Shown: positions 2,690 to 45,036 of the stretch, piece by piece
How positions within the stretch are numbered: the first letter of the stretch is position 1
How the letters are laid out: each line of letters starts with the position of its first letter
NCBI GenBank assembly: GCA_937891465.1
Contig: CALAHF010000124.1
Location: 1-46,083, forward strand
From: an uncultured Verrucomicrobiales bacterium
GTDB lineage: Bacteria; Verrucomicrobiota; Verrucomicrobiia; Verrucomicrobiales; DEV007
Direction of reading: 5' to 3'
DNA: 46,083 bases
Program-made: the position numbers and the translations under genes
The notes under the pieces: model-generated
What the model was told of the DNA's origin: nothing
Databases searched by the model: none
The model's input: the letters and a program-made list of their open reading frames with translations, nothing else

Positions 2690-3472
2690 ATGCTTGCTGT
2701 CATTTCCCCTGCCAAAACGCTCGACTACGAATCCCGATGTCCTGCGCACGATCCTTCTCAGCCTGAATTTCTCGATGAAGCCGGGGAAATCATCGGGGTG
2801 CTGAAGAAAAAGACCCGCCCTCAGCTTGGTGACCTGATGAGCATTTCTGAAAAGTTGGCGGACTTGAATTTTCAGCGCTACAAAGACTGGTCGCGCCCTT
2901 TTTCGGAAGACAATGCGCGTGCTGCGCTACTGGCTTTCAAGGGAGACGTTTACACCGGGTTCGATGTCGAGAATTACGGAAAACGCGACTTCAATTTTGC
3001 GCAAAAGCATCTTCGGATCCTTTCCGGGCTTTACGGACTGCTTCGGCCGCTGGATCTGATGCAACCGTATCGGCTTGAGATGGGAACCAAGCTAAAAACC
3101 AAACGGGGAGGGGATTTGTATGCCTTTTGGGACGAAAAAATCACCCACGCCGTCAACCGGGTCGTTGCTGACTCAAAGGGAAAAGCCCTCATCAACTTGG
3201 CGTCGAACGAATATTTCAAGTCGATCCGGCCAAAACTCCTCGAGTGTGATGTGATCACGCCTTCGTTCAAAGATTTGAAAAACGGGAAATACAAGATCAT
3301 CAGCTTTTTTGCCAAAAAGGCCCGAGGGATGATGTGTGACCATATGATTCGTAATCGGCTGACAAAACCAGAAGAGCTGAAATCCTTTGATCGAGCAGGT
3401 TACGCCTATAATGATGCGCTTAGTAAAGGCAATACGTGGGTTTTTACTCGCGATGAACCTCAAAGCGATTAA
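2690..3472 (+). CDS. yaaA: YaaA family peroxide stress protein
   Basis: A 260-residue cytoplasmic protein of the YaaA/DUF328 family, which in E. coli lowers intracellular free iron during hydrogen peroxide stress and limits DNA damage. The family signature is complete: ISPAKTLDYES at the N terminus, KGDVYTGFD near residue 90, a central LRILSGLYGLLRPLDLM, NLASNEYFK near 170, and the C-terminal AGYAYNDALSKGNTWVF. Length and ends match the family. The start ATG has no Shine-Dalgarno. The next gene on the same strand begins about 30-70 bases downstream. No peroxide-responsive operator was recognised. Confidence 0.95.
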   Translation: MLAVISPAKTLDYESRCPAHDPSQPEFLDEAGEIIGVLKKKTRPQLGDLMSISEKLADLNFQRYKDWSRPFSEDNARAALLAFKGDVYTGFDVENYGKRDFNFAQKHLRILSGLYGLLRPLDLMQPYRLEMGTKLKTKRGGDLYAFWDEKITHAVNRVVADSKGKALINLASNEYFKSIRPKLLECDVITPSFKDLKNGKYKIISFFAKKARGMMCDHMIRNRLTKPEELKSFDRAGYAYNDALSKGNTWVFTRDEPQSD

Positions 3473-3542
3473 TTTCAGATTTCCGAAAGGTTCTGTGGTT
3501 TCGATGTTGCTGACAGTGGTCTTTGCATGTTCCCTAGCGGCA

Positions 3543-4289
3543 ATGTTTTCCCGCCGGAAAATCGCTTTTGACCTTTTGGTAGTTAGCTCCCTGTGTCTTG
3601 CTGCATGTTTTGCGAATGCTCAGGAAGTGAAGGAGAATCCGTCGACCGATCCCGAAACCAAAGCGGTCGATGAGTCTGAAAAGGCTCCGGAAGTAGCGAC
3701 TCCGACAACCCCGGTTGTTTGGAGGGGGATCATGCAGAATGTATTAGTTGATCCCATGGCTCGATTGCCGTTTGGAGAATCCGAAACCCTCCGTGCCCCG
3801 ATTGCGGTTCATTTTCCGGCCCAGAAGTCATCAATCTGCTGGGACGCGAAAGCCTGCCGCTTGCTGTATGCGTGGAAGGGGGAGTTTTTGGCTCAAGACG
3901 CCACCACTCAAATCGCAATGCCAGCAGGAGAAATCGCCTACCTGGCAGCAGGGCCGGGTCCGTTTTCCGCGGCCGTCGGTGCGTATGGAAAGCCCAAGTA
4001 TTTTGGTTTCAAATTGATCGAAGGTGTTCCTGAATTCTATTACTCTGTAGGTCGCGTGGCCGTTCGGGAGCGGTTTTCATTCTCGGAGGATGCGGAAACG
4101 TTGATGCAGCATTTCGCAATCGATAACTCCGCAGGAGACGTCGTCATGACTATTCCAGAAGCATGGAAAAATCGGATTTCGACTGAAAAAGGAACCCTGA
4201 AGAATCGAATTCTGACCGTCAGTAAAAATGACGCGGCTGATTTCACCCTGAACTATTCGCTGATTCCTGATGAAACGCCTGCCGAATAG
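3543..4289 (+). CDS. Secreted protein resembling a segment of PVC-type dehydrogenase/heme-binding proteins
   Basis: A 248-residue exported protein. From ATG 3543 it has a basic N terminus (MFSRRK), a hydrophobic stretch and a cleavage-like site ANA-Q, that is, a Sec signal peptide. An upstream ATG at 3504 with a distant AAAGG is the alternative start; the frame also overlaps the end of yaaA. After an acidic, Pro/Thr-rich linker comes a region with SICWDAKACRLLYAWKG. This resembles the 'CxDxxxxRxxYAWxGgFL' segment found in large PVC-group secreted dehydrogenase/heme-binding proteins, here as a free-standing unit. No heme-binding CxxCH is present. Its stop overlaps the start of the next gene by 20 bases, indicating co-translation with that related secreted protein. 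Confidence 0.6.
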   Translation: MFSRRKIAFDLLVVSSLCLAACFANAQEVKENPSTDPETKAVDESEKAPEVATPTTPVVWRGIMQNVLVDPMARLPFGESETLRAPIAVHFPAQKSSICWDAKACRLLYAWKGEFLAQDATTQIAMPAGEIAYLAAGPGPFSAAVGAYGKPKYFGFKLIEGVPEFYYSVGRVAVRERFSFSEDAETLMQHFAIDNSAGDVVMTIPEAWKNRISTEKGTLKNRILTVSKNDAADFTLNYSLIPDETPAE

Positions 4290-5538
4290 TTTTTACGACC
4301 CAATAGGGTCTGTTCGACGAATCAACCCTGGTGGATCGTTTGTTGCGCTATGTCTGTTGGGAACCGCAGCCCCTGCTGATGAACCGGTGTGGACGATTCA
4401 GGATGGCAAGATCCTAAAGGACGACGTGGTGTTTGTTGAATCCGGTATCGAAGCTCCCGTTGGAATTCGTCCTGCAAAGAACGGGTCGGTCATCGTAGCG
4501 CAGCCGAATGAATTGACGCAAATTTTTGATGAAGATGGCGATGGCAAAGGCGATTTCTTTCAGGCACTCATTTCCGGACTGCATTTAGATCAGCACATCG
4601 TTTCTGGCCCTATGGTCAGCGCCGCCGGTGAGATCTACGTCGCAGTGGATCGAGCCGGGGAGATGGTCGATCTCATTTCATGGGCTCCAGGTAAAACGAG
4701 TCTGGTGCTTTCTCTGCCAAATACAGCTCGGAATCTGGCGATTGATGCTGATAGTCTGCTCGCGGCGATTGTTTCCAATAACGAAGGGGTTTGGATTGCG
4801 ACGGCTCAACTCCCAAAGCCTCCTGAGGCTGTTCCTGCACCAAAAGAAGGAGCGGAGCCTCCCTTGCGAGCCGTTCCGGTTGCTCCCCCAACGCTTGAAC
4901 CCGCTGTCCGCATCCCAAAATCTTTGGTAGGTGAGGGGAATACGATCTCCGATCTCGCATTTGCCAGCAATGGCGGCTTTCAGGTGACAATCTCCGATGG
5001 AAAAATTCTGAATGTGGCAGCGGCTCCGATCGACGGTCGCATTCAGGGAAGTGTGATTCCCGCTGTCGAAGACCCCGAGGTTTTTGCGGTGCAGGGTATT
5101 CAACTGAGAACTGATGGTTTTTCAATCGTCTTGAATCAGCCCATTGATCGAGGCGTGGGAGGCGTAGAACCGATTCCATTCCAGATTTTGTCCGGAAAAT
5201 TGATTGGTGAGATTCCGTTGGAACCCATTCCACTGCTGGATGCAATTATTGAACCGGACGGCAAGACGCTGAATCTTATTCCTGCCGCTCTTTTGCCTGA
5301 GCGTGACTATGTGTTTGATTTCAGCGCACTGAAAGCGGAAACAGGAGAGCCTTTAATCGCTGAGAAAGCAGCTTACACCGTCATTAAGATCCCGGTTCCG
5401 ACCGTGTTACCGCCTCTGATTGAAGGTGACATCATCGACGCTACGACCATTAAAGAGCCTGAGGTCGAGGTTGGTGGTGATGAGAAAAAATCTCCAGAAA
5501 CATCTAAAGGGAAGACCGATGCAGCGGTCGAAGAATAG
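4270..5538 (+). CDS. Secreted NHL/beta-propeller-like protein with Ig-like C-terminal domain (PVC type)
   Basis: A 422-residue exported protein that pairs with the preceding gene, overlapping it by 20 bases. Residues about 40-190 resemble the beta-propeller part of PVC membrane-bound dehydrogenases (GIEAPVGIRP, FDEDGDGKGDFF, VSAAGEIYVAVDRAG). Residues about 275-370 resemble their Ig-like domain (IQLRTDGFSIVLNQPID). The C terminus is acidic and low in complexity, and no CxxCH is present. The N terminus is odd: residues 9-24 are encoded by repeat copy 2, and the only ATG in frame is 4270. The repeat supplies the basic residues (VRRINPGGS) before the hydrophobic segment FVALCLLGTAAPA-DEP, so the signal peptide is partly repeat-derived. 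Possible role in extracellular polysaccharide or alcohol oxidation is inference only. Confidence 0.65.
   Translation: MKRLPNSFYDPIGSVRRINPGGSFVALCLLGTAAPADEPVWTIQDGKILKDDVVFVESGIEAPVGIRPAKNGSVIVAQPNELTQIFDEDGDGKGDFFQALISGLHLDQHIVSGPMVSAAGEIYVAVDRAGEMVDLISWAPGKTSLVLSLPNTARNLAIDADSLLAAIVSNNEGVWIATAQLPKPPEAVPAPKEGAEPPLRAVPVAPPTLEPAVRIPKSLVGEGNTISDLAFASNGGFQVTISDGKILNVAAAPIDGRIQGSVIPAVEDPEVFAVQGIQLRTDGFSIVLNQPIDRGVGGVEPIPFQILSGKLIGEIPLEPIPLLDAIIEPDGKTLNLIPAALLPERDYVFDFSALKAETGEPLIAEKAAYTVIKIPVPTVLPPLIEGDIIDATTIKEPEVEVGGDEKKSPETSKGKTDAAVEE
4295..4339 (+). repeat. 45-bp palindromic repeat, copy 2 (inside a coding region)
   Basis: Left arm ACGACCCAATAGGGT (4295-4309), loop CTGTTCGACGAATCA (4310-4324), right arm ACCCTGGTGGATCGT (4325-4339). 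The arms pair with two mismatches and one wobble. The orientation is plus. It begins 5 bases after the stop of the upstream secreted-protein gene but lies within the first 24 codons of the next gene, which has no other usable start. Confidence 0.88.
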
Positions 5539-6863: not shown

Positions 6864-8693
6864 ATGATGATTGGAAAGAAACTCTCAACCGCTTGGGCAA
6901 TGACTGCGCTAATTACAGCGCCGTTCTTGGGCTATGCTCAGCAAACCATCACCGACCAGAATGGCACGGAGATACTGATCGATGCGCTTCCATTGGCAAC
7001 ACAAGGCCAAGTGATCGAAACGAAAGGCGTCATGGCCGGTGGCGGTGGCGAAGGTCCACTTCGCGTTGATGAACTGGGTCGCTTTTATCTTGATCCCGAT
7101 GGCAAGCAGGGACGTGTCAGCGAGCAGCTTCTTGTTGATCAGATGCTTGGAGTTGTTTTGGTTCCGCGCCCAGGCGATGTGAAAGCCGATGGCTGGCCTG
7201 GAGTTGAAGGGGTTTGGCACGATTTGGAAGAGCTTCCTTCAGAAGTAGGTGCAGTTTTCCAGGGCTACCTTTATCAGCCTGTTTCACTGGCATCTCTCGA
7301 CGAGATGGTTCGTGCAATCATTTTTGCTTACCGTGATGCGGGTCGTCCAGTAGTCGACGTTTTGCTTCCTGAGCAGGACATTACCTCAGGTGTTGTTCAG
7401 CTTGTGGTGATCGAGTCAGAGCTTGGTGGCGTTCGCGTTGAAGGTGTTGATTCGGAATACGAAGAATACCTCCGCAGTCAATTCCAAATCAAGAAAGGTG
7501 AAGTTATTCGCAGCGAAGAAGTGCTTCGTGACCTGACATGGTTGAACCGCAGCCCCTACCGCAAGGTCGATTTGATCTACTCTCCCGGTTATGAGTTCGG
7601 AACTTCAGACATCATTTTGAATGTCACTGAGTCCAAAAAAGCATGGTTCTACACCGGCTACGAGAATTCAGGAACAGAGCTTCTCGGTGAAGATCGTTAC
7701 ATCTTCGGTTTCAACTGGGGTGATGCATTTGGCCCGGACAAGTCGTTGAGCTATCAGTTCACAACCGATGCCGAAGTTGATACAGTGAAAGCGCACTCAG
7801 TCGTTTACACGCAGGGACTCCAGAATCGTCACTATCTCACGCTTCTCGGATCTTACGTCACGGTTGACGCTGACATCCCGGTGGGTGATGGATCATTCCT
7901 TAATAGCGGTGGAGAAAACTCACAATTTAGCGGTCGTTACGCGATTCCTCTTGCAGGAAAAGCCAATCGTCGCCGTGAGATTGATTTCGGATTTGATTAC
8001 AAATCAAACAACAACAACCTCGAGTTTGGTGGCGCTGAAGTATTCGATACTACCGTTGAAATCGCTCAGCTGACTGCAGGATACAAAACAACGATCCAAG
8101 GGCGTCGCGGAGTAACTCAAATTGATGCTCGCGGTTTTGTTTCTCCTGGAGACCTCACAAGTTTCAACAAAAACGAAGTGTTTGAGCAATCACGTGCCGG
8201 ATCATCTGCTGATTACCTTTACGCAACATTAGGCATCGAGCATCAGCACCGCCTCGGTGAAGACTGGTCTTTGCGGGTAAAAGGTCAGGGACAAGTTTCT
8301 AACAGCAACCTGCAGGCTTCTGAGCAGCTTGGTGCTGGCGGTTACGATACTGTTCGTGGTTTCGAGCAGCGCATTGCCCGGGCTGACGAAGGCTTCTGGG
8401 GAACAATCGAGCTTTACACTCCTGAGATTTCAGTGGGACGTATCTTTGACTGGGAAAATGAGACCGATTCACTTCGCCTCCTGACCTTCTTTGATTCGGC
8501 AACGCTTTCAAATGTGGATCGTCTTCCTGACGAGCCTAATCAGGTCGAGATGCAGTCTGTTGGTGCGGGTTTCCGTTGGAGCTACTCCGATTGGTTCCGT
8601 CTCCGCTTCGACTACGGTTATCCTGTAACCACTCAGAACATCGAAGTTGATGAGAGCGGTCGTTTCCACATCGGCGCGACAGCAAACTTCTAA
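6864..8693 (+). CDS. ShlB/FhaC/HecB-type outer-membrane transporter (two-partner secretion, TpsB)
   Basis: A 609-residue outer-membrane protein. The N terminus (MMIGKKLSTAWAMTALITAPFLGYA-Q) is a signal peptide. Residues about 30-140 form a Gly/Asp-rich plug or linker, then come POTRA-like segments (FAYRDAGRPVVDVLLPEQDITSGVVQL, split here as FAYRDAGRPVVDVLLP and EQDITSGVVQL; a ShlB-type POTRA_2 ending near residue 235). The rest is a beta-barrel with the conserved barrel-loop motif TVRGFEQ (VRGY/F of the Omp85/TpsB superfamily) and a C-terminal aromatic strand ending in Phe (FHIGATANF). In the family the barrel exports a large TpsA adhesin or hemolysin. No TpsA gene is adjacent, so this is either an orphan TpsB or a BamA-like assembly factor. 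It is monocistronic: long leader before it and a strong terminator after it. Confidence 0.82.
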   Translation: MMIGKKLSTAWAMTALITAPFLGYAQQTITDQNGTEILIDALPLATQGQVIETKGVMAGGGGEGPLRVDELGRFYLDPDGKQGRVSEQLLVDQMLGVVLVPRPGDVKADGWPGVEGVWHDLEELPSEVGAVFQGYLYQPVSLASLDEMVRAIIFAYRDAGRPVVDVLLPEQDITSGVVQLVVIESELGGVRVEGVDSEYEEYLRSQFQIKKGEVIRSEEVLRDLTWLNRSPYRKVDLIYSPGYEFGTSDIILNVTESKKAWFYTGYENSGTELLGEDRYIFGFNWGDAFGPDKSLSYQFTTDAEVDTVKAHSVVYTQGLQNRHYLTLLGSYVTVDADIPVGDGSFLNSGGENSQFSGRYAIPLAGKANRRREIDFGFDYKSNNNNLEFGGAEVFDTTVEIAQLTAGYKTTIQGRRGVTQIDARGFVSPGDLTSFNKNEVFEQSRAGSSADYLYATLGIEHQHRLGEDWSLRVKGQGQVSNSNLQASEQLGAGGYDTVRGFEQRIARADEGFWGTIELYTPEISVGRIFDWENETDSLRLLTFFDSATLSNVDRLPDEPNQVEMQSVGAGFRWSYSDWFRLRFDYGYPVTTQNIEVDESGRFHIGATANF

Positions 8694-12603: not shown

Positions 12604-13389
12604 TCAGGCCTCAGAATCAACCGGTGATTCTGATTTCAGCCACGCGAGAAACTCGATGTTTCCATCCGTCCCGCTAATGGCCGATTCAGTGACGCCACAC
12701 CATTTTATTCCCTCGGTTTTTTCAATGAAATCGTGAATTTTCTCCTTCGCCTGTTCATGCAATTCAGGATCGCGGACGATACCGCCCTTCCCGATCTGAT
12801 CCCGTCGCAGCTCGAATTGCGGCTTGATCAGACAAATGACATCGCCACCCGGCTTAAGAACCGAAAATGCCGGCGGTAGAATCAGGGTCAGCGAGATAAA
12901 TGAAACGTCCGTCACGACCAAATCGACTTTTTCAGGCAATTCATCGGGCTGCATGTGGCGAACATTGATCCCTTCACGACTGGTCACGCGATCATCATTG
13001 CGCAATTTCCAGGCAAGTTGATTGGTTCCTACATCAAATGCATAGACGTGTTTGGCGCCGCGTTGCAGCACGCAATCCGTAAAACCTCCCGTTGAGGATC
13101 CAATATCAAAAACAACTTTCCCTGCCGGATCGATTTCAAAGTGATCCAGCCCCTTCTCGATTTTCAAACCACCGCGACTGACGAACTTGGGCTTCGATTT
13201 CACTGTCAGCGAAATATCTTCCAGCACGTTAGCGCCTGGCTTTGGAGACTTCTGCTGGCCTTCAAGAACCACATCGCCCGCCAAAATAAGACGCTTTGCC
13301 TGTTCGCGGGAATCGCACAATCCCCGAGCTACCAGCAACTGATCCAATCGTATTTTTTTTGGGTTAGCAGACACGTTCCCACGAATCAA
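12604..13389 (-). CDS. tlyA: TlyA family 23S/16S rRNA 2'-O-methyltransferase
   Basis: TlyA methylates cytidines in rRNA at the ribose 2'-O (16S C1409 and, in the long type, 23S C1920). The protein has an N-terminal S4 RNA-binding domain (RLDQLLVARGLCDSREQAKR, about residues 13-70) and an FtsJ/RrmJ methyltransferase domain with FVSRGGLKIEKGL, SAM motif VFDIGSSTGGFTD, DVSFISL and LIKPQFE carrying the K-D-K catalytic set. The longest start is TTG at 13389, which lies in the left arm of repeat copy 3; GTG at 13374 is the more ordinary candidate and gives 256 residues. Operon with nadK downstream. Hemolytic activity reported for some homologues is not implied. Confidence 0.95.
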   Translation of the reverse strand: MIRGNVSANPKKIRLDQLLVARGLCDSREQAKRLILAGDVVLEGQQKSPKPGANVLEDISLTVKSKPKFVSRGGLKIEKGLDHFEIDPAGKVVFDIGSSTGGFTDCVLQRGAKHVYAFDVGTNQLAWKLRNDDRVTSREGINVRHMQPDELPEKVDLVVTDVSFISLTLILPPAFSVLKPGGDVICLIKPQFELRRDQIGKGGIVRDPELHEQAKEKIHDFIEKTEGIKWCGVTESAISGTDGNIEFLAWLKSESPVDSEA

Positions 13390-13425
13390 CAGGGTATGTT
13401 CGATGAATCAACCCTATTTGATCGT
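13381..13425 (+). repeat. 45-bp palindromic repeat, copy 3
   Basis: Left arm ACGAATCAACAGGGT (13381-13395), loop ATGTTCGATGAATCA (13396-13410), right arm ACCCTATTTGATCGT (13411-13425). The arms are more diverged than in copy 1 (three mismatches). The orientation is plus. It is the only full copy not placed after a stop codon: it overlaps the 5' end of tlyA (minus strand). The rest of the 13390-13700 gap holds no gene that I can support. Confidence 0.88.
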
Positions 13426-20188: not shown

Positions 20189-20233
20189 ACGTACCAACAG
20201 GGTTGGTTCATCGATCAGACACTGTTTGATCGA
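20189..20233 (-). repeat. 45-bp palindromic repeat, copy 4
   Basis: Left arm ACGTACCAACAGGGT (20189-20203), loop TGGTTCATCGATCAG (20204-20218), right arm ACACTGTTTGATCGA (20219-20233). The loop matches the reverse complement of the consensus loop, so the element points to the minus strand. It lies 33 bases past the end (20267) of the minus-strand lipoprotein remnant and about 185 bases upstream of sucA. Confidence 0.85.
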
Positions 20234-30209: not shown

Positions 30210-30254
30210 TCGATCCAACAGGCTTCATTCATCGAACAGCCCCTATTTGATCGC
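30210..30254 (-). repeat. 45-bp palindromic repeat, copy 5
   Basis: Left arm TCGATCCAACAGGCT (30210-30224), loop TCATTCATCGAACAG (30225-30239), right arm CCCCTATTTGATCGC (30240-30254). The loop matches the reverse complement of the consensus, so the orientation is minus, although it sits 18 bases after the plus-strand rsmI stop. It lies 99 bases before sdhC. Confidence 0.88.
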
Positions 30255-33887: not shown

Positions 33888-33932
33888 ACGATCCAACTGG
33901 GTCTGTTCGCTGAACGGATACTGTTGCTTCGT
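33888..33932 (+). repeat. 45-bp palindromic repeat, copy 6
   Basis: Left arm ACGATCCAACTGGGT (33888-33902), loop CTGTTCGCTGAACGG (33903-33917), right arm ATACTGTTGCTTCGT (33918-33932). The orientation is plus, 6 bases after the sdhB stop. The right half, from TGAACGG onward, is the one shared with copy 7. Confidence 0.9.
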
Positions 33933-40908: not shown

Positions 40909-40953
40909 ACGATCCAACAGGGTTGGATTGATGAACATACCCTATTGGTTCGT
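40909..40953 (+). repeat. 45-bp palindromic repeat, copy 8
   Basis: Left arm ACGATCCAACAGGGT (40909-40923), loop TGGATTGATGAACAT (40924-40938), right arm ACCCTATTGGTTCGT (40939-40953). The arms pair well. The loop fits either orientation equally, so the strand is nominal. It begins 6 bases after the rapA stop and is separated by 9 bases from copy 9. Confidence 0.9.
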
Positions 40954-40962
40954 AAAGCCATT

Positions 40963-41007
40963 TCGATCGCATAGGGTACGTTCGATGAATCAATAGGGGT
41001 AGTTCGT
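40963..41007 (+). repeat. 45-bp palindromic repeat, copy 9 (right arm altered)
   Basis: Left arm TCGATCGCATAGGGT (40963-40977), loop ACGTTCGATGAATCA (40978-40992), right arm ATAGGGGTAGTTCGT (40993-41007). The right arm's inner part reads like the inverse of the expected ACCCTAT, so pairing is lost there. Its end reaches the possible GTG start (41006) of the next gene. Confidence 0.75.
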
Positions 41008-44991: not shown

Positions 44992-45036
44992 ACGATCCAA
45001 CAGGGCCTGAACCATGAATCAACCCTGTTGCTTCGT
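44992..45036 (+). repeat. 45-bp palindromic repeat, copy 10
   Basis: Left arm ACGATCCAACAGGGC (44992-45006), loop CTGAACCATGAATCA (45007-45021), right arm ACCCTGTTGCTTCGT (45022-45036). The orientation is plus. It lies in the 183-base gap between the PAP2 gene start and the oxidoreductase stop, 79 bases from that stop. Confidence 0.88.

Follow-up and report, generated by a model that had tools for sequence, protein, structure and literature searches.

Can a mobile palindrome become the signal region of a secreted protein? The window analysed here, a 46,083-nucleotide stretch of DNA from an uncultured Verrucomicrobiales bacterium, raises this question through an open reading frame (ORF) of 422 codons (4270–5538, forward strand), which encodes a DUF7133-like (PF23500) predicted secreted protein with the signal peptide MKRLPNSFYDPIGSVRRINPGGSFVALCLLGTAAPA|DE, although the DUF7133 match is weak. 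A first-pass annotation had placed a palindromic repeat at codons 9 to 24 of this ORF and proposed its exaptation as part of the signal peptide. Alignment, a score of 61.5 bits (E = 1.3e-15 in its own genome) against covariance model R1 and the finding of zero copies in a reversed control place this repeat, copy 2 of a 45-nt family, exactly at 4295–4339 on the forward strand, with its two units at 4296–4316 and 4318–4338. Its translation reads YDPIGSVRRINPGGSF and stands directly ahead of VALCLLGTAAPA, which bears out the claim that the repeat codes for the residues in front of the hydrophobic segment. The family consensus has TGA, a stop, at the position of the CGA codon for Arg17 (4318–4320, forward strand), and a T>C change at repeat column 24, where C is present in 11 of 47 copies, keeps the frame of copy 2 open. 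Of 334 copies, 116 are free of stops in this reading frame.

We examined whether translation through the repeat is compatible with export, judging signal peptides here and throughout from sequence and hydropathy, with start sites being predicted. As annotated, ATG 4270 opens the 422-codon ORF. The hydrophobic core and c-region, FVALCLLGTAAPA, span 4339–4377 on the forward strand with a hydropathy maximum of 2.34, and cleavage is predicted after Ala36. By inspection and hydropathy the ORF carries the elements of a Sec signal, namely an MKR...RR n-region, the core FVALCLLG and A-P-A at −3/−1. The annotation had also stated that no other in-frame start precedes the core; this is correct in that no ATG, GTG or TTG lies between ATG 4270 and the core, but a TTG at 4357 inside the core and a GTG at 4387 do exist. 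Starts later than ATG 4270 would destroy the predicted signal. When the flanks are joined without the 45 nt, the frame is kept and a compact signal peptide, MKRLPNSFFVALCLLGTAAPADE, is obtained, the ORF then starting with MKRLPNSFFVALCLLGTAAPADEP.

Comparison of orthologous starts, the check that the annotation had named, revealed ordinary signal peptides without the repeat. The orthologue in the same-genus genome G001 (42% identity) starts with MTRCLSACLLVSPLLTACFAAVAADLP and has no repeat in its ORF, while a repeat element lies about 43 nt ahead of its ATG, just past the stop of another gene; more distant homologues likewise have a plain signal peptide, for example MTRLYPLIIAIGILGTATAQE in G019. 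Because no alternative start retains the signal, homologues have repeat-free signal peptides at this place and the flanks join compactly, the assignment of the repeat to the n-region is well supported, and its layout recurs in other genes (see below). We put the probability that translation runs through copy 2 and makes it the n-region of the predicted signal peptide at roughly 0.8.

The repeat family is large and uniform. All 47 copies first collected are exactly 45 nt long (consensus from alignment A1, ACGATCCAACAGGGTnTGTTCGATGAATCAACCCTGTTGGATCGT), and the 45-mer is built of two inverted 21-nt units (CGAACCAACAGGGTTGGTTCG) with a spacing of 22 nt. A search of the own genome with covariance model R1 returned at least 150 copies. 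We counted 214 copies in 1.20 Mb and, in a wider sample of 1.90 Mb of fetched contigs (about a third of the genome), 334 copies, against none in the reversed sequence in both cases; this density implies about 1,000 copies per genome. Units form arrays of one to four, in which doublets show an extra step of 32 nt (54 nt start to start) or, rarely, 42 nt, as read in contigs C80, C97, C164, C163, C17, C165, C20, C19 and others of the own-genome sample and at 40909–41007 of the window. Doublets are common in the own genome, with 30 in 1.2 Mb, whereas the G001 sample has none.

Within the window, copy 1 (1651–1695) lies 12 nt past the stop of the FloA gene. Further forward-strand copies are found at 13381–13425 and 44992–45036, both intergenic, at 33888–33932, 6 nt past a stop, and as a tandem doublet at 40909–40953 and 40963–41007, also 6 nt past a stop; the reverse strand carries copies at 20189–20233 (intergenic) and 30210–30254 (18 nt past a stop). 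The window also encodes a ShlB/FhaC-type two-partner secretion transporter (6864–8693; PF03865). The palindrome can form a long hairpin (z = −6.0 for copy 1 and −2.6 for copy 2), and no Rfam 15 covariance model matched within the window at E ≤ 0.5. Several identities were considered and dropped. The hairpin is flanked by T-rich sequence before and A-rich sequence after it, which leaves an intrinsic terminator unsupported; in many copies the RYYYAAC core expected of an attC-like integron site is disrupted at its variable fifth base, as read from their sequences; and a phage-borne repeat was dropped because an exact-arm pattern had no match in viral contigs. As for the hallmarks of a MITE, inverted arms are present, the flanks hold no consistent target site duplication (TSD), and a non-exhaustive search found no parent element.

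Copies are strongly concentrated behind genes. Based on gene calls from our own 7-state model rather than a published caller, 41% of the 214 copies in 1.20 Mb begin 0–19 nt past a stop codon, compared with 1.9% for positions drawn at random and 11% for random positions between genes, and 17% lie wholly within called genes, compared with 86% of random 45-mers (first 440 kb). Copy 2 conforms to this pattern with respect to the upstream gene (3387–4289, forward strand), whose stop codon TAG (4287–4289) lies 5 nt ahead of the repeat and within the next ORF; it is the 20-nt overlap of the two genes that puts the family's ordinary place into the signal region of the second gene. The two genes are adjacent in several relatives. 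At most other signal-peptide copies, too, the preceding gene runs in the same direction and its stop faces the element, often within 70 nt.

These observations suggest how the locus may have arisen. A high-copy palindrome favouring the first ~20 nt past stop codons would have landed 5 nt past the upstream gene's stop. Since that gene shares its last 20 nt with the next ORF, the palindrome would have come to lie in frame between the start codon and the signal core of the latter. It would thereby have added 15 codons (45 = 3 × 15), free of stops through CGA in place of TGA. Synthesis and export of the protein would continue, now with an extended n-region whose core-proximal basic residues R16 and R17 would be repeat-derived. 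We hold this scheme of post-stop landing, in-frame n-region insertion and continued export to be probable as a whole, and we infer translation from ATG 4270, export, and insertion here rather than loss in the relatives.

An alternative is that the 45-mer is mainly a site acting at the DNA level, a pair of 21-nt operators for a putative DNA-binding protein, so that any overlap with coding sequence would be incidental. Such a protein is suggested by the unit spacings of 22, 32 and 42 nt, all close to whole helical turns. We addressed conservation by comparing two species across 172 reciprocal best pairs (median identity 71.6%). Nine post-stop copies were shared in these pairs, which is not beyond chance (P = 0.23) and argues against intergenic sites kept for binding. 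In-gene copies were shared more often, namely 5 of about 11, in the penicillin-binding protein PbpC, a HEAT-repeat protein, an ABC ATPase and two signal sequences. In PbpC the in-frame repeat occupies the matching codon position in both species (L239, at C164:102216, and L166:3695), and its nucleotide identity is 0.82 against 0.66 in the flanks, with few synonymous changes; this would fit a DNA site, two shared copies having been compared at the nucleotide level. We regard the DNA-site explanation as tentative.

The shared signal-sequence copies belong to a solute-binding lipoprotein and to the pair L205:6382 and C227:15588, of which the copy in G000 is weak. From the in-gene sharing, it seems that some segments encoded by the element, signal sequences among them, are older than the separation of the two species, although independent insertion at the identical spot may instead account for them. 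Not every in-gene copy looks like a clean insertion: in PanC (L264, C20:71066), PyrD (L135:12056), GlpD (C80:140528) and an ABC ATPase (C139:18336) the genes are nearly length-neutral relative to homologues, and the 15 codons appear to stand in for a variable segment instead of lengthening the protein. Another in-frame copy (L118:13008–13052) corresponds to residues 1109–1124 of DnaE, the replicative DNA polymerase, close to its C-terminus. N-terminal copies in PurB-, IlvD- and NUDIX-like genes (families named from sequence) were left aside, each of these genes having a better start downstream of the copy.

To return to copy 2 as part of a signal peptide, its arrangement is not unique. By inspection of the sampled third of the genome, we found about 18 loci with a copy in the signal sequence of another protein with predicted export, where it provides the n-region, the start codon or the hydrophobic core. 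The frame and layout of copy 2 recur in an unrelated gene at C204:36311 (MKTVLNTS[FEPTGSVHRTNPIASF]FAILLFASAAFGQ), in a PSCyt1/PSD1 protein (C204:75027), in a CrtC lipocalin with a doublet (C80:127587 plus 127641) and in the sister species at L233:6468 (MRFQKNRE[DESTGLVRRINRVGSF]FGLIGLLAAPAFSAE). The ATG lies inside the repeat at C97:136175, C105:18753, C139:13775 and C163:22807. Read-through 5' copies stand ahead of a hydrophobic segment in 13 of 19 cases, compared with 403 of 1161 background genes (35%; Fisher P = 0.003), in a small set restricted to ATG starts and with doublet members counted separately. In the paralogous secreted genes at C80:197709 and C163:77378 the repeat occupies the matching N-terminal place, and was probably duplicated along with the gene.

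At three loci the repeat itself forms the hydrophobic core: in an SASA esterase (C163:113552, MKFSRKLLK[TIQPFLFIVLTLLVR]ENGFAELK), in an NAGPA protein (C166:74901) and at C19:24645. The G001 orthologue of the esterase is 72% identical and has an ordinary core at that place. Among the 334 copies, each ranked for hydropathy in the respective frame, these three rank first, second and first, respectively, and C163:113552 and C166:74901 stand well apart from the third-ranked copy. Because the ranks were noticed post hoc and were not a planned test, they are suggestive. Together with the two orthologous pairs, these three copies make co-option better supported for the family than for copy 2, and we give repeated co-option of the family into signal sequences about even odds or better.

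For copy 2 itself, adaptive exaptation would mean that Arg16-Arg17 took over as the core-adjacent positive charge and was kept by selection. It is favoured by the location of the two arginines nearest the core, by the recurrence of the frame V-R/H-R-T/I-N-P..S-F ahead of the cores of unrelated proteins, and by the T>C change at 4318 that removes a stop. However, MKR at the gene start already provides basic residues, and the insertion is found in no close relative, the sister-species orthologue being without the repeat. Moreover, +1, the net charge of the copy 2 peptide, occurs more often than any other value among copies with this frame open; beyond the open frame that is required, copy 2 therefore shows no further sign of tuning. 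The first-pass annotation had seen coding constraint in more mismatched arms, an argument that proved wrong: in copy 2, 3 of the 15 pairs are mismatched, whereas the median for the 334 copies is 5 and 84% of them equal or exceed the count of copy 2; nor is the number of mismatches higher in copies within genes than in those between genes (P = 0.26). The impression probably came from the hairpin of copy 2, which is weaker than that of copy 1 (−17.7 versus −26.5 kcal/mol). Exaptation of copy 2 is thus unlikely in our view, and we give an insertion that is tolerated no lower odds than one co-opted adaptively.

It is quite improbable that copy 2 is extragenic, forming the 3' end of the upstream gene with the second gene starting at TTG 4357 or GTG 4387, as its place 5 nt past a stop, usual for the family, and the frequent misannotation of starts around N-terminal intragenic REPs that are really extragenic and non-coding (PMC3733652) might suggest, since these starts halve or remove a signal core where homologues have signal peptides, the frame from ATG 4270 is stop-free, and the overlap of ATG 4270 with the upstream gene is expected of a coupled pair kept in relatives.

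A translated palindrome brings known systems to mind. The Rickettsia palindromic elements (RPEs; Ogata et al. 2000), with Wolbachia equivalents reported in 2005, are 105–146 bp long, Rickettsia-specific and translated in many genes. Like them, the window family consists of hairpin palindromes that occur between genes and, in frame, within numerous unrelated coding sequences, as translated peptide inserts; unlike them, it is 45 nt long in all copies, has 21-nt units and resides in a Verrucomicrobiales host, and the RPE literature searched describes no signal-peptide role. GTAG/CGTC REP/BIME sequences are short, high-copy palindromes occurring as singletons and dimers, mostly less than 20 bp from ORF 3' ends and in some cases intragenic, and the verrucomicrobium O. 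terrae has the highest number of intragenic GTAG repeats (PMC3733652). The window family shares the extragenic location near ORF 3' ends, but its consensus, ACGATCCAACAGGGT...ACCCTGTTGGATCGT, lacks a GTAG or CGTC tag, and its unit spacing is fixed at 22/32 nt. A RAYT-driven REP was rejected, the single Y1_Tnp match in the 229-contig draft genome being degenerate, with an internal stop and no repeat at its locus. Lacking the tag, a RAYT and the RPE length, the family works like a protein-coding palindrome but is outside both RPEs and GTAG/CGTC REPs.

Closest in outcome is the Yersinia RU-2/YPAL repeat, a 168-bp mobile element that, in the exported protein YPO1552, codes for a portion of the predicted signal peptide (Delihas 2007, PMC2759123). 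Both are small mobile repeats contributing to predicted signal peptides; the accessible part of that source describes few such cases, whereas for the window family about 18 loci were counted in the sampled third of the genome, with further evidence from the sister species and from hydropathy. Correia/NEMIS elements and other MITE-ORF fusions resemble it as short, non-autonomous repeats fused in frame to genes, but are longer and have TIR/TSD signatures, while no TSD is definable here. Protein-coding palindromes (RPEs, intragenic REPs) and one MITE-derived signal peptide (Yersinia RU-2) are already known.

We propose, with the odds evenly balanced, that the repeat family supplies export signals systematically: it would serve dozens of secreted proteins per genome in two Verrucomicrobiales species by providing the start codon, the n-region or the core, and selection would reshape it after co-option. 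Such reshaping would have led from TIQQG-type peptides containing acidic residues to TIQPFLFIVLTLLVR and AIQQGVIVVLTLLFQ. Most palindromes known to code for protein are regarded as inserts that are tolerated, neutral or mildly harmful. Signal peptides are judged by composition and not by sequence, and the family may offer a concrete route from selfish or structural DNA to functional protein. Its many cases, with or without the repeat, in one or both species and in n-region or core, lend themselves to weighing tolerance against selection. If the family does act as a systematic source, the birth of signal peptides from repeats would become traceable in a dated series of cases.
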